NCBI RefSeq assembly: GCF_017603825.1
Contig: NZ_CP072014.1
Coordinates: 1,550,001 to 1,614,000, forward strand
Source: Arthrobacter crystallopoietes
Lineage (GTDB): Bacteria > Actinomycetota > Actinomycetes > Actinomycetales > Micrococcaceae
Reading direction: 5' to 3'
DNA length: 64,000 nucleotides
Position numbers and translations under genes: made by a program. Below are positions 41,422 through 46,126 of the stretch, piece after piece. Numbering within the stretch: the first letter of the stretch is position 1; each line of letters opens with the position of its first letter. The notes under the pieces were generated by a model. That model ran no database searches. It was not told the DNA's origin and was given only the letters and a program-made list of their open reading frames with translations.

Positions 41422-42138
41422 GTGACTGATCTCATCGACACAACCGAGATGTACCTTCGGACCATTCTCGAGCTGGAAGAAGAGAACATCGTTGCCCTGC
41501 GGGCCCGCATTGCGGAGCGCCTGCGCCATTCCGGACCTACCGTTTCCCAGACCGTGGGGCGGATGGAGCGTGACGGGTTAGTGGTTGTCTCCGGAGACCG
41601 GCACCTGGAGCTTACGGAGAACGGCCGGCGCCGCGCCACCGAAGTGATGCGCAAGCACCGGCTGGCCGAGCGGCTCCTGGCGGATGTCATCGGTCTGGAC
41701 TGGGCTTATGTCCACGACGAAGCATGCCGGTGGGAGCATGTGATGAGCGAGCGGGTGGAGCAGCGCCTCTATGAGCTGCTGGGTAAACCTACTGAGTCGC
41801 CCTACGGCAATCCCATCCCGGGGCTTGAGGCCCTGGGCGGAAAGCCTGCTGAGGAGTTCATCAACGGTGTTGTTAACCTCACAGAAGCCATGCGGAAGTA
41901 CCAACCGTCGGACACCGTGACCATTATCCGGCTAGCCGAGCCGATCCAGGTGGAGCCGGAATTGCTCCTCCAACTGGATGAAGGGGGCCTGAAACCCGGG
42001 GCCAAGCTGCAGCTGGAAACCGTGGGCGAATACATTTCAGTTCGTGTCCCAGGCATCGAGGGCGCCCTCGAACTGCCGCCCGAGGTGGCTGCCCACATCT
42101 TTGTGGCGTTCGATCCCGTCCCAGCTGGAAACGCTTAA
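41422..42138 (+). CDS. DtxR/IdeR-family metal-dependent transcriptional regulator
   Basis: A 238-aa regulator. Residues 1-65 are the winged helix (LIDTTEMYLRTILELEEENI, GPTVSQTVGRMERDGLVVV). Residues 66-140 are the metal-binding/dimer domain (HRLAERLLADVIGLDWAYVH, DEACRWEHVMSERVEQRL) with the usual Cys-x-x-x-x-His-x-x-Glu-like ligand set. The C-terminal SH3-like domain is about 150-230. Length fits IdeR/DtxR more than the shorter MntR. It represses iron-uptake genes when Fe(II) is bound; a likely target is the gene at 20795. GTG 41422 has GAGGAG 11 bp upstream. Confidence 0.9.
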   Translation: MTDLIDTTEMYLRTILELEEENIVALRARIAERLRHSGPTVSQTVGRMERDGLVVVSGDRHLELTENGRRRATEVMRKHRLAERLLADVIGLDWAYVHDEACRWEHVMSERVEQRLYELLGKPTESPYGNPIPGLEALGGKPAEEFINGVVNLTEAMRKYQPSDTVTIIRLAEPIQVEPELLLQLDEGGLKPGAKLQLETVGEYISVRVPGIEGALELPPEVAAHIFVAFDPVPAGNA

Positions 42139-42228
42139 CCGCGTTGTCCACAGGAATGGATAAAGGAATTATTACTCTGGAGGGTTTCCCTTTATAGTTG
42201 TTGCTTGACGCCGATGCATTGGCGTTAC

Positions 42229-42424
42229 CTGATCCGTAGCCGAACCCTGTCAGCGGATCAGCGACCCGCATTGACAGGGGCGGAGGACCCACCATCGGCA
42301 GCCTACCCAGCTGCCTAGGGGTGAAGCCACGCTTGATTTCGGTACCAGCCGCTTTCCGCGCTGATGCCGCACGTCTTGTGGCCGAGTTATCTCTTACTCG
42401 AATCCGACAGCTAACTTCGCAGGC
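42229..42424 (+). promoter_or_regulatory. c-di-AMP riboswitch (ydaO/yuaA type) upstream of the M23 gene
   Basis: Core blocks of the ydaO aptamer occur in order: GCCGAACCC (42239), GGCGGAGGACCCAC (42280 region), CTAGGGGTGAAGCC (42315 region) and the 3' signature CGAATCCGACAGCTAACTTC followed by GCAGGC (ends 42424). These match the aptamer sequence known from Thermoanaerobacter ydaO as I recall it. The rest of the 42139-42444 gap is promoter. The ribosome site GGAGAGGG follows 5-6 bp after. In actinobacteria this class sits before resuscitation-factor and cell-wall hydrolase genes and lowers expression when c-di-AMP is bound. Confidence 0.9.
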
Positions 42425-42444
42425 TTATAGGAGAGGGAAGAGTT

Positions 42445-43242
42445 TTGTCAGAACAAAGAGCCACGGGACGGCGTCGTTCGGCCGCCCCGGCAGGTAGGTC
42501 GCGGCCGCGTTCGGGAAGCACCGGCCGCCGACGCGCCGAAGCTGCTCCGTCGCCCGTTACCTCAGTAGTCCGCGGTGCCGGCCACAAGGCCGCCATTGTG
42601 GCCACCGCATCCGGCATGGCGCTTACTGTCCTGCTGCCCACCACCGCAGGTGCCTCTGCGTCCGGCGAACCCACCGTTGATGCGGCAGCAGCCGAGGTCA
42701 CAGCCGTCGCCGCCGCGCCCGTGACAGCGGCAGCGGAAGTTGATCTGCACTTCCAGCGCGCTGGCCTGACCAGCAATTTTGATCCGGACGCCAAGCTCGA
42801 ACAGGTCATGGTGGCATCCGGCAGCGATGCCAAGGCCGTCAGCAGTGAAGGTACGCTGTCCCAGCCAATGGAGATGGACAGCATGAAGATGACTTCCCCG
42901 TTCGGTATGCGGGTCAATCCCGTAACCGGGTATGCCGGTGAAATGCACACCGGCCAGGACTACGGCGCAGCCTGCGGCTCGCCGGTCTACTCTGCCGCAG
43001 GCGGCACGGTCAAGGAAGCCGGCTGGTTTGGCGGCTATGGCAACCGCGTGGTGGTGGACCACGGCAACGGCCTTGAGACCACGTACAACCACCTGACAAG
43101 CATTAGCGCCAAAGTCGGCGACACCGTCAGCCGTGGGGAATTGTTGGCCCAAAGTGGTACAACCGGTAATTCCACCGGTTGCCATCTTCACTTTGAGGTA
43201 GTTGTCAACGGCGACATGGTTGACCCCAAGGGTTGGCTGTAA
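42445..43242 (+). CDS. Secreted M23-family (LytM) peptidoglycan endopeptidase
   Basis: A 265-aa exported zinc peptidase. An Arg-rich N-terminus and hydrophobic segment (about 48-72, ending ASA) act as signal. The M23 domain (about 145-265) holds FGMRVNPVTGYAGEMHTGQD with the H-x-x-x-D zinc ligands, LAQSGTTGNSTGCHLHFEVV with H-x-H, and NGDMVDPKGWL. It cuts peptide cross-links in the wall. TTG 42445 is preceded by GGAGAGGGAAG. First of three riboswitch-controlled wall genes. Confidence 0.93.
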   Translation: MSEQRATGRRRSAAPAGRSRPRSGSTGRRRAEAAPSPVTSVVRGAGHKAAIVATASGMALTVLLPTTAGASASGEPTVDAAAAEVTAVAAAPVTAAAEVDLHFQRAGLTSNFDPDAKLEQVMVASGSDAKAVSSEGTLSQPMEMDSMKMTSPFGMRVNPVTGYAGEMHTGQDYGAACGSPVYSAAGGTVKEAGWFGGYGNRVVVDHGNGLETTYNHLTSISAKVGDTVSRGELLAQSGTTGNSTGCHLHFEVVVNGDMVDPKGWL

Positions 43243-43258
43243 CCAAGGACACACCATT

Positions 43259-43280
43259 CCGTGATCGGAATGTGACTTAG
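43259..43280 (+). promoter_or_regulatory. Conserved promoter box, copy 1
   Basis: CCGTGATC, one variable base, GAATGTGACTTAG. The same 22 bp recur at 44623-44644 before the second NlpC/P60 unit, although the 40-odd bp after it differ. It contains a direct repeat GTGAT/GTGAC with 11-bp spacing. Possible regulator site; inference. Confidence 0.5.
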
Positions 43281-43340
43281 AAGATGAAACGTTATAGTGT
43301 CGAACCCGTGCCGAAGACCGGTTAGAGGTTTGGCACCTCC

Positions 43341-43529
43341 GGGTGGATTGCCTAGCTCTGCCACTTCCCGGGGTCCGTTCGCAACGATTTCGCATGGCAG
43401 AGGCGGGGGAACCAACTTTCGGGCTTCTTTTGGAGGCCCTTGGGGTTAAGTTGTGGGTGTTCTTGGCTGAGGCCGGGGCTCCCATGGCCGGATGACTCCC
43501 ATCCGAACCCGACAGCTCACCTCGCAGGC
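43341..43529 (+). promoter_or_regulatory. c-di-AMP riboswitch (ydaO/yuaA type) upstream of NlpC/P60 copy 1
   Basis: Aptamer blocks in order: GGATTGCC, GAGGCGGGGGAACCAAC, CTTGGGGTTAAGT and the 3' signature CCGAACCCGACAGCTCACCT followed by CGCAGGC. GGGAGAGG follows at once as the ribosome site of GTG 43550. Same class as 42229 but closer in detail to the Thermoanaerobacter type (GGGGTTAA). Confidence 0.9.
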
Positions 43530-43549
43530 ATTGGGAGAGGTAATCACTC

Positions 43550-44332
43550 GTGTCTAAGAACACTGCTGCTTTGGGCCGCCACCGTGCTGTGCCCGTCCGT
43601 ACCAGCCCGTTGGAGTCTATTTCCAAGGCTGTTTCTTCGAATGCCGGTTCCGTGGGCCGCCAGGCTGCTGTGATTGCTGCCGCGTCCGGTCTGGTTCTTT
43701 CTGTCGGTGTTCCGGCGCAGGCGACCAGTATTGAGCGTGAGGCTTCGGTCCAGGCTGCTGCTGCGGCTCCGTCGCGGGTGCAGGTTGAGGCTGTGCAGGC
43801 TTCTGCTGCTGTTGAGCTGGATCTTGAGCGTTCGGGTGTGACCTCGACGGCCGCTCCGGTGGTTGAAGAGCCGGAGCCTGTGGTTGAGGCTGTGGCCGAG
43901 GAAGTTGCTCCGGTGGTTGAGGAAGCTGCCGAGAAGGCTGTTGCCCCGGTTGAGAAGGCTGAGGAAGCGCCGAAGCCCGAGGCGAAGGCTGATGTTGCTG
44001 CCAGCGGTATTGGTGCCGCTTTGGTGGCGTCGGCTTACGGCCAGATCGGTGTGTCGCAGGACTGTACCGCGATGGTGGAGAACGCGCTGCGTTCGGCCGG
44101 TATTTCCGTGGGCGATCTGGCTCCGGCGCAGTTCATGGCGTACGGTACCCAGGTTTCGACGCCGCAGCCGGGCGACATGATCTACTACGACGATGCCGGT
44201 GCCGGTGTGCCGCACATCGCGATTTACGTGGGCAACGGCCAGGCCATTCATGGTGGCTGGACCGGTTACACGACCGCGCTGGCCGATGCCTACATCGGTT
44301 CGGGCCCGGTCTTCATCCGCCCCAACGGCTAA
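43550..44332 (+). CDS. Secreted NlpC/P60-family peptidoglycan hydrolase, copy 1
   Basis: A 260-aa exported protein. A signal segment (about 38-60, AAVIAAASGLVLSVGVPAQA) is followed by a Val/Glu/Ala/Pro-rich spacer (about 62-148) and an NlpC/P60 domain (about 150-260). The nucleophile Cys is in GVSQDCTAMVENALRSAG and the catalytic His in GVPHIAIYVGNGQAIHGG. It cleaves peptide stems of peptidoglycan. Codon use is unlike the neighbours, with many T-ending GCT, GTT and GGT codons. Identical to the protein at 44912. Confidence 0.93.
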   Translation: MSKNTAALGRHRAVPVRTSPLESISKAVSSNAGSVGRQAAVIAAASGLVLSVGVPAQATSIEREASVQAAAAAPSRVQVEAVQASAAVELDLERSGVTSTAAPVVEEPEPVVEAVAEEVAPVVEEAAEKAVAPVEKAEEAPKPEAKADVAASGIGAALVASAYGQIGVSQDCTAMVENALRSAGISVGDLAPAQFMAYGTQVSTPQPGDMIYYDDAGAGVPHIAIYVGNGQAIHGGWTGYTTALADAYIGSGPVFIRPNG

Positions 44333-44333
44333 G

Positions 44334-44622
44334 GCGCAATTAGCGCAGCCCCGCTGCCAGCCGGCCTATTCAAGCGGACGGGTTCACATCCGTAAGGGAT
44401 GCGGGCCCCTTCCTTGATTTCTTATGGTGCTCTTTCCGTGCCTGCCATTTCGGCCAACTCCTATATTCCGGCTGCATTCTTCCGCACTTCTCGTCACATT
44501 CAGGTAACGGCGAAAAATGTGAATTAAATCACGCAGACGTGAAAGAAAACCGCGAATTTCCGGGGCATGATGAAACGATACGGGCTGGGAGGACGCTGTC
44601 TGGCCGATTCAAAGCGGATTTC
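44334..44622 (+). other. Gap between the two NlpC/P60 units
   Basis: No gene is seen in this 289 bp. It is more AT-rich toward its 3' end than the rest of the region. TCACATT near 44493 and AATGTGA near 44516 form a loose inverted repeat. There is no clear terminator after copy 1, so transcripts may run into the second unit. It ends in the promoter box at 44623. Confidence 0.6.
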
Positions 44623-44644
44623 CCGTGATCTGAATGTGACTTAG
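44623..44644 (+). promoter_or_regulatory. Conserved promoter box, copy 2
   Basis: Same 22-bp box as 43259-43280 with one base changed (t for g). It lies 2 bp further from its riboswitch than copy 1, because the spacer between box and duplicated block is not part of the near-identical repeat. Confidence 0.5.
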
Positions 44645-44702
44645 GGCTGTAAATCGTATACCGTCTTGTTCGTGCCAAACCGGATCATGGTTTGGTACCT
44701 CC

Positions 44703-44891
44703 GGGTGGATTGCCTAGCTCTGCCACTTCCCGGGGTCCGTTCGCAACGATTTCGCATGGCAGGGGCGGGGGAACCAACTTCCGGGCTTCTTTTGGAGGCC
44801 CTTGGGGTTAAGTTGTGGGTGTTCTTGGCTGAGGCCGGGGCTCCCATGGCCGGATGACTCCCATCCGAACCCGACAGCTCACCTCGCAGGC
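44703..44891 (+). promoter_or_regulatory. c-di-AMP riboswitch (ydaO/yuaA type) upstream of NlpC/P60 copy 2
   Basis: The same aptamer as 43341-43529 with two base changes (GGCAGGGG for GGCAGAGG; CTTCCGGG for CTTTCGGG). All conserved blocks and the 3' signature are intact, so it should still bind its ligand. Confidence 0.9.
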
Positions 44892-44911
44892 ATTGGGAGA
44901 GGTAATCACTC

Positions 44912-45694
44912 GTGTCTAAGAACACTGCTGCTTTGGGCCGCCACCGTGCTGTGCCCGTCCGTACCAGCCCGTTGGAGTCTATTTCCAAGGCTGTTTCTTC
45001 GAATGCCGGTTCCGTGGGCCGCCAGGCTGCTGTGATTGCTGCCGCGTCCGGTCTGGTTCTTTCTGTCGGTGTTCCGGCGCAGGCGACCAGTATTGAGCGT
45101 GAGGCTTCGGTCCAGGCTGCTGCTGCGGCTCCGTCGCGGGTGCAGGTTGAGGCTGTGCAGGCTTCTGCTGCTGTTGAGCTGGATCTTGAGCGTTCGGGTG
45201 TGACCTCGACGGCCGCTCCGGTGGTTGAAGAGCCGGAGCCTGTGGTTGAGGCTGTGGCCGAGGAAGTTGCTCCGGTGGTTGAGGAAGCTGCCGAGAAGGC
45301 TGTTGCCCCGGTTGAGAAGGCTGAGGAAGCGCCGAAGCCCGAGGCGAAGGCTGATGTTGCTGCCAGCGGTATTGGTGCCGCTTTGGTGGCGTCGGCTTAC
45401 GGCCAGATCGGTGTGTCGCAGGACTGTACCGCGATGGTGGAGAACGCGCTGCGTTCGGCCGGTATTTCCGTGGGCGATCTGGCTCCGGCGCAGTTCATGG
45501 CGTACGGTACCCAGGTTTCGACGCCGCAGCCGGGCGACATGATCTACTACGACGATGCCGGTGCCGGTGTGCCGCACATCGCGATTTACGTGGGCAACGG
45601 CCAGGCCATTCATGGTGGCTGGACCGGTTACACGACCGCGCTGGCCGATGCCTACATCGGTTCGGGCCCGGTCTTCATCCGCCCCAACGGCTAA
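44912..45694 (+). CDS. Secreted NlpC/P60-family peptidoglycan hydrolase, copy 2
   Basis: Predicted protein identical over all 260 residues to that at 43550, with the same signal, spacer, catalytic Cys (QDCTAMV) and His (PHIAIYVG). The gene has its own promoter box, riboswitch and ribosome site, and is followed by a terminator at 45861. The duplication raises gene dose or lets two promoters drive the same enzyme. Confidence 0.93.
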   Translation: MSKNTAALGRHRAVPVRTSPLESISKAVSSNAGSVGRQAAVIAAASGLVLSVGVPAQATSIEREASVQAAAAAPSRVQVEAVQASAAVELDLERSGVTSTAAPVVEEPEPVVEAVAEEVAPVVEEAAEKAVAPVEKAEEAPKPEAKADVAASGIGAALVASAYGQIGVSQDCTAMVENALRSAGISVGDLAPAQFMAYGTQVSTPQPGDMIYYDDAGAGVPHIAIYVGNGQAIHGGWTGYTTALADAYIGSGPVFIRPNG

Positions 45695-46126
45695 GAGTTT
45701 CAGCAGGGTCTGCGGTACCTGTACACGTTTCCTAGGTCATAGCAGTACCATCCCGGGCGTTCCGCCGTACGGAGGCCTGCCGGCATCTGCCGGCGGCCCC
45801 AGTTGCAAACGCCGGTCTGCCCGTGGCGGAGCTGGAATAGACCTGGATCAACGTTTTTGCCTGCAGGGCCGTCCTCCGTCGAGGGCGGCCCTGCAGTAGT
45901 TAAGGGGTGGGTGCGCCTTGCCCCTGATCGGCACGGTTCTCGTCTGACGAGAACCGAAAACAACGTTTCATCAGCGCCGCGGGCCCCCCGTCGGAATTTC
46001 GATAGGCGAATAATTAGCGCAGCGGGCGTGATTCCGCTTACTCTAACTCTTGTCAGTGTCGAATCACCATGGCCGGGAGCAGCCGATCCCGCAGCCCCGG
46101 ACGTGGCCGGACGGACAGGAACGTGC
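45695..46126 (+). other. 432-bp gap with two hairpins
   Basis: No gene seen. It holds a terminator-like stem (45861-45896) and a perfect 11-bp inverted repeat CGGTTCTCGTC/GACGAGAACCG (45934-45956) followed by an AAAA stretch. The last ~100 bp are the leader of the HNH gene. Confidence 0.6.
45861..45896 (+). terminator. Terminator hairpin after NlpC/P60 copy 2
   Basis: A 16-bp stem with one G-U pair (45861-45876 with 45881-45896) and loop CGTC, then TAGTTAAG. Position and strength fit the end of the riboswitch gene array. Confidence 0.7.

Follow-up and report, generated by a model that had tools for sequence, protein, structure and literature searches.

How does a single second messenger come to stand before three neighboring cell wall hydrolase genes, and by what mechanism might it act on them? 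This question is raised by a 64,000-nucleotide (nt) stretch of Arthrobacter crystallopoietes DNA (assembly GCF_017603825.1, contig NZ_CP072014.1, positions 1,550,001 to 1,614,000 of the forward strand), here called the window, whose coordinates are used below. An earlier note on this DNA had proposed that 42229-44891 contains three leaders of the ydaO (cyclic di-AMP [c-di-AMP] riboswitch) type, each before its own hydrolase gene and together serving two enzyme chemistries. Both claims held. When the entire window was searched with cmscan, three matches to Rfam family RF00379 exceeded the gathering score of 38 bits, all on the + strand. In this Infernal search, none of the three leaders lacked a match or fell below threshold. 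Pfam identified one M23 and two NlpC/P60 genes, as follows.

42228-42440, + strand: c-di-AMP aptamer 1 (RF00379, 74.2 bits, E = 2.3e-15)
42445-43242, + strand: gene 1, M23 peptidase, 265 amino acids, TTG start (PF01551, E = 1.2e-31)
43375-43544, + strand: c-di-AMP aptamer 2, RF00379 match (51.4 bits, E = 5e-09)
43550-44332, + strand: gene 2, NlpC/P60 hydrolase (copy 1), 260 amino acids, GTG start (PF00877, E = 4.2e-10)
44737-44906, + strand: c-di-AMP aptamer 3, RF00379 match (49.6 bits, E = 1.6e-08)
44912-45694, + strand: gene 3, NlpC/P60 hydrolase (copy 2; PF00877, E = 4.2e-10)

Gene 1 scored 109.2 bits against a PF01551 cutoff of 28.7. Genes 2 and 3 encode identical 260-amino-acid proteins, each scoring 40 bits against a PF00877 cutoff of 23 and covering positions 9 to 80 of the 105 in the profile. 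The N-terminal stretch of each hydrolase looks like an export signal, so the three enzymes are probably exported. The closest named record for gene 2 was from Arthrobacter sp. VKM Ac-2550 (99%; records of the window's own genome were possibly excluded). These results confirm that the observation is real and that the initial account of it was broadly right, while its interpretation as a whole was supported in part. Single riboswitches before hydrolase genes were correctly said to be known in actinobacteria, having been published for Streptomyces and Corynebacterium. The kind of element, a c-di-AMP riboswitch before a wall hydrolase gene, is therefore already known, and the most interesting part of the locus is its lineage-specific RNA anatomy.

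Tail of the 3′ pseudoknot and its overlap with the ribosome-binding site

Downstream of helix P1, the tail of the aptamer base-pairs with a hairpin loop situated toward the aptamer's 3′ end. This 3′ pseudoknot comprises seven pairs in leader 1 and five in leader 2, and the leader 3 tail is the same as that of leader 2.

42390-42396 (loop) with 42428-42434 (tail), + strand: 3′ pseudoknot, aptamer 1; the tail overlaps the Shine-Dalgarno (SD) sequence by 5 nt
43496-43500 with 43533-43537, + strand: 3′ pseudoknot, aptamer 2 (pair counts)
44858-44862 with 44895-44899, + strand: 3′ pseudoknot, aptamer 3 (by its 1362-base offset)

To compare relatives, 124 leaders were reduced to 121 by removal of 3 off-target sequences and then to 114 distinct aptamers. 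Pairing of each loop with its own tail averaged −11.17, versus −9.60 (standard deviation, 0.17) for permuted partners, a value reached in 0 of 10,000 permutations. The excess was also found within the 88 leaders of the same order and the 26 of other orders taken separately, as well as for 32 aptamers drawn from the class to which a Gemella genome belongs (0 of 5,000 permutations in each case). "Same order" follows the genome-database taxonomy here; one named relative is placed in Micrococcales by NCBI. Helices of at least 5 base pairs (bp) joined loop and tail in 109 of the 114 aptamers, yet also in 75% of swapped pairs, so much of the raw complementarity reflects composition. For L070, L073, L078, L088, and L111, the best helix fell beyond the loop of the hairpin or in the distal part of the tail. 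In an alignment of 53 NlpC-type leaders (1 of 54 rows, L096, was dropped), whose structure was taken from the window sequence, a choice that favors this structure, 89.8% of the 3′ pseudoknot cells paired, compared with at most 74.0% in slid versions.

The tail overlapped the SD sequence by at least 2 nt under a strict rule in 68/88 same-order leaders versus 7/26 leaders of other orders (75/113 overall). Under a looser rule, drafted after the strict one, the counts were 81/88 and 11/26. A pseudoknot of this sort is not new. Published work describes a solved ydaO RNA whose modeling included a 5- or 6-pair pseudoknot (PMC5393176), which by our own reading of the printed sequence would be the loop-tail pairing, and a CTCC:GGAG pseudoknot over the SD sequence, resembling the window leaders, that was proposed for Corynebacterium glutamicum nlpC (PMC9960051). 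What is added here is comparative support for the loop-SD pairing.

The leaders as candidate translational OFF switches

In the arrangement that we propose, all three units begin with a candidate promoter and a 5′ hairpin, continue with a c-di-AMP aptamer, and end in a wall hydrolase gene. The aptamer would be a lineage-specific ydaO form in which, on the 5′ side, the P2 loop is paired with the nucleotides preceding P1 and, on the 3′ side, the loop-to-tail pseudoknot has a tail overlapping or abutting the SD sequence. Binding of c-di-AMP would stabilize this fold, cover the ribosome-binding site, and reduce translation, so that at high c-di-AMP the levels of the M23 enzyme and of both identical NlpC/P60 enzymes would fall jointly. 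Family membership and published relatives suggest that c-di-AMP controls how strongly each gene is expressed. On balance, the array leaders are likely to be translational OFF switches that mask the SD sequence upon ligand binding.

One of the closest parallels is C. glutamicum nlpC, where, as here, a ydaO-type aptamer precedes an NlpC/P60 gene without a canonical terminator, and where c-di-AMP represses, most likely at translation (PMC9960051). That riboswitch is one unit heading a seven-gene operon, whereas the Arthrobacter array has three units. In Streptomyces, too, secreted hydrolases are preceded by ydaO leaders, of which a genome has six or seven (PMC10117811, PMC8079986), but the genus differs at rpfA, where termination is reported (PMC10117811), and among leaders of other orders SD overlap was seen in only the 7/26 noted above.

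The Streptomyces coelicolor rpfA riboswitch, reported to act via transcription termination, provides the model for a different explanation, in which the array leaders also act on transcription and the tail, being purine rich, overlaps the SD sequence only incidentally. Several observations lean this way and weigh against SD masking. Weak terminator-like sites built from an aptamer strand lie within aptamers 2 and 3 (43404-43421 and 44766-44783) and could form a competing terminator; the C. glutamicum leader lowers transcript irrespective of the c-di-AMP level (PMC9960051); and the frequency of helices in swapped loop-tail pairs shows how much composition explains. In leader 2, the strict tail-SD overlap is only 1 nt, the SD sequence being readable as GGAG or GAGGT. 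The strict rule failed in 20/88 same-order leaders, and in riboswitch L004 of the same genome, loop and tail match over just 3 bp. On the other hand, the terminator scan found no site between any aptamer and its gene, and its total of 7 sites was near the shuffled mean of 4.4 (standard deviation, 1.9). Loop-tail covariation exceeds permutation, and the overlap differs by lineage. Transcriptional control is thus unlikely, and translational masking is the reading that we retain. Reports on the mode of actinobacterial c-di-AMP riboswitches differ, with termination described for Streptomyces rpfA and translation for Corynebacterium nlpC; the lineage contrast in SD overlap suggests that both reports could be right. 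The loop-SD pairing offers a concrete, testable mechanism, and the array would couple two peptidoglycan-cutting chemistries to one messenger through a repeated regulatory cassette.

A 5′ pseudoknot joins the strand before P1 to the P2 loop

The Rfam alignment leaves aptamers 2 and 3 with three broken P1 pairs. In the sequence of aptamer 2, P1 can be read as 43349-43352 paired to 43527-43530, and P2 as 43356-43363 paired to 43395-43402. Since P1 and P2 cells were paired at 93.3% and 95.9%, respectively, over the 53 NlpC-type leaders, aptamers 2 and 3 start near 43337 and 44699. No covariation was found for P3 in this alignment (52 of 300 shuffles reached its value). The corrected aptamers and the elements of the 5′ region are as follows.

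43337-43541, + strand: aptamer 2, corrected 5′ end (RF00379 match and pair counts)
44699-44903, + strand: aptamer 3, corrected 5′ end (RF00379 match and 1362-base offset from aptamer 2)
42229-42237 with 42253-42261 (P2 loop), + strand: 5′ pseudoknot, aptamer 1 (pairing test)
43337-43343 with 43367-43373, + strand: 5′ pseudoknot, aptamer 2 (pair counts)
44699-44705 with 44729-44735, + strand: 5′ pseudoknot, aptamer 3 (pairing test and offset)
42206-42227, + strand: 5′ hairpin (P0), leader 1 (hairpin score)
43308-43336, + strand: 5′ hairpin (P0), leader 2 (hairpin score)
44672-44698, + strand: 5′ hairpin (P0), leader 3 (hairpin score)

In same-order aptamers, the nucleotides immediately preceding P1 show complementarity to the opening portion of the P2 loop. 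Over 110 rows, pairing with the row's own partner scored 19.04 versus 14.21 for permuted partners (0 of 5,000 reached it), and after dereplication to 62 rows the values were 18.85 and 14.16 (standard deviation, 0.37; 0 of 10,000). The 13 rows from other orders showed no excess (14.0 versus 14.0), although the script that located their P2 had been optimized for same-order aptamers. Before dereplication there were 46 distinct Watson-Crick strands of at least 6 nt; in the covariation test at that stage, 3 of the 110 rows were dropped, and the row's own partner was its best in only 21/107 (16/62 dereplicated). In the 53-row alignment, all 7 pairs had changes on both sides (70 cells) and 78.8% of cells paired, while slid versions gave at most 61.0% and shuffles a mean of 64.3% (0 of 300 reached the observed value). 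The 5′ hairpin that precedes the pseudoknot strand had a mean score of 16.84 versus 12.01 for shuffled sequence and ended within 3 nt of the strand in 67/106.

Firmicute-type ydaO RNAs, to which the solved structures belong, share the core aptamer but differ here: by eye, P2 is a small hairpin in the 32 aptamers, without room for a 7- to 9-bp 5′ pseudoknot. The pairing is missing from the RF00379 consensus line, which is weak evidence for novelty because that line omits the 3′ pseudoknot too. No description of it was found in the open-license literature searched, and prior publication is possible. If confirmed, the 5′ pseudoknot would alter the structural model of these RNAs.

It is also conceivable, if rather doubtful, that this helix lies outside the bound aptamer and competes with P1, the switch toggling between the two. 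The hairpin loop of the 5′ pseudoknot would contain the 5′ strand of P1, and the two helices are each conserved separately, both of which fit such a toggle; an H-type pseudoknot may, however, tolerate the P1 strand in its loop. Whether same-order riboswitches form a structural subtype, with a 5′ pseudoknot and enlarged P2 loop, an SD-merged 3′ tail, and a terminator-free translational switch, the switch and its hydrolase gene being copied as a unit and the copies kept alike by gene conversion, is a proposal that we regard as evenly balanced.

Gene conversion in an old pair of NlpC duplicates

Three genomes, G000, G001, and G007, share the array in collinear order (94.3% over 4813 columns and 92.2% over 4819), so the NlpC duplication predates their split. 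Within these genomes the two NlpC open reading frames (ORFs) differ at 0/785 (G000), 3/782, and 1/785 sites (0, 5, and 1 in pairwise alignments), compared with 20 to 37 sites between genomes. Among informative ORF columns, 39 were concerted (alike within every genome, different between genomes), none was orthologue-type, and 4 were mixed. Flank columns were orthologue-type at 19 (5′) and 10 (3′) positions and mixed at 17 and 55. In the leaders, 6 columns were concerted, 1 orthologue-type, and 12 mixed, 10 of the latter within the first 22 positions. Leaders 2 and 3 of G000 differ at 10/235 positions, comparable to leaders between genomes (7 to 13). The 5′ flanks of the same copy differ between genomes at 2 to 10 of about 70 positions, and those of the two copies within a genome at 25 to 29 of 70.

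The concerted columns make gene conversion clear for the NlpC ORFs, and it likely covered most of the aptamer as well. That the twin genes are an assembly artifact or a fresh duplication, as the identical G000 ORFs might indicate, is highly improbable: the array is collinear across three genomes, the flanks of the same copy are more alike between genomes than those of the two copies within one, and the window's own genome is a single contig. This explanation was rejected. The claim that the array is not a single triplication was right but incomplete, as copies 2 and 3 go back to an old duplication and were homogenized by conversion. No report of riboswitch gene conversion or concerted evolution was found in the open-license literature, where the one match concerned CRISPR in Pyrobaculum.

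Pairs are common among relatives, and triples are unusual in the family sample

Arrays were defined as RF00379 matches within 3 kb and were counted in samples of the genus, the family, and the order. All 10 genomes of the genus have 5 to 8 matches; 9 have a cluster, and 4 have a triple (G000, G001, G007, and G008). In the tenth, G003, an aptamer and an M23 gene lie before a run of 96 Ns within the repeat, which makes the copy number unreadable. Of 120 genomes sampled from the family, 6 of them belonging to the genus, 97 had a match. The 69 family genomes outside the genus with at least two matches were searched again, and 22 single-match genomes were left at one search, so the family counts are lower bounds: among the 114 genomes sampled outside the genus, no fewer than 57 carry an array and no fewer than 2 a triple. 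The 69 genomes yielded 57 pair clusters and 2 triple clusters (G013 and G043), with two clusters each in G013 and G080. Outside the family, 7 of 92 genomes in the order sample have a pair. This survey shows that the array is an expansion of a pair common among relatives. The suggestion that a triple run is unusual holds for the family sample but not within the genus. In the open-license literature, nothing was found on tandem ydaO elements before NlpC, Arthrobacter c-di-AMP riboswitches, or Micrococcus NlpC riboswitches.

Gene order was read in 19 arrays (20 fetched stretches minus L042, which has a gap, and L043, which has no array, plus the window). The first gene encoded M23 in all 19. The second encoded NlpC/P60 in 16 by phmmer, in L050 and L053 by Pfam, and in L051 only via its likeness to L050. 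In four pairs outside the family, every gene giving a match was NlpC/P60 (one of L064 and both of L069 by Pfam; the second of L074 and of L084 by phmmer), and three genes gave no assignment. At two further loci (G395:C49:83916-84257 and G405:C1:1575434-1575934), two same-strand RF00379 matches lie 48 and 84 nt apart, as if sharing one leader.

Candidate promoters carry MtrA-like repeats

Each unit may be transcribed separately from a candidate promoter. The -10-like boxes were read from the sequence; a sigma-70 scan found no promoter-like site in 42100-45900.

42160-42175, + strand: MtrA-like direct repeat, gene 1 (one mismatch; the strict pattern fails here)
42193-42198, + strand: candidate -10-like TATAGT, gene 1
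43261-43276, + strand: MtrA-like direct repeat, gene 2 (clean pattern match)
43293-43298, + strand: candidate -10-like TATAGT, gene 2
44625-44640, + strand: MtrA-like direct repeat, gene 3 (clean pattern match)
44657-44662, + strand: candidate -10-like TATACC, gene 3

The pattern, direct repeats of period 11 plus a -10-like box, occurred upstream of 41/48 leaders versus 6/2400 shuffles in the set from which it came, a count that is not independent because the pattern was drawn up after the array leaders had been viewed. The 7 leaders without it include the window gene 1 copy, its G001 partner, and L003. In order genomes outside the source set it was found in 20/31 (versus 3/1550 shuffles), and in other orders in 0/29 (versus 2/1450). 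The family set (30/36) and the named set (24/26) both share genomes with the source set. The repeats resemble the MtrA consensus sequences of C. glutamicum (PMC3353115) and S. coelicolor (PMC5650626). MtrA targets in C. glutamicum include mepA, mepB, nlpC, and rpf2 (PMC3353115), and MtrA is among the regulators of the nlpC promoter there (PMC9960051). MtrA may control the array promoters.

Other riboswitch-led genes in the genome

The genome has six RF00379 aptamers. The three outside the array precede an M23 gene (L002), a LysM and NlpC/P60 gene (L003), and a 297-amino-acid Ala/Thr/Pro-rich frame (L004:605-1498, − strand) for which no Pfam match was found. Riboswitch-led genes account for 3 of the 4 NlpC/P60 domains and 2 of the 4 M23 domains found in the genome. 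One diadenylate cyclase (DAC) domain (E = 8.4e-24) gives the organism a predicted capacity to make c-di-AMP.

All six riboswitch-led proteins (42445, 43550, 44912, L002, L003, and L004) carry, close to the N terminus, a short basic motif of the form GRRR, GRHR, or ARHR; by eye, it is missing from three other M23/NlpC proteins (L146, L151, and L152). Directly upstream of the array lies a gene of the iron-dependent repressor family (41422-42138, + strand), and a similar frame was seen by eye upstream of an aptamer in L061. Elsewhere in the window, 453-512 (− strand) matches the msiK RNA (RF01747, 67.6 bits).

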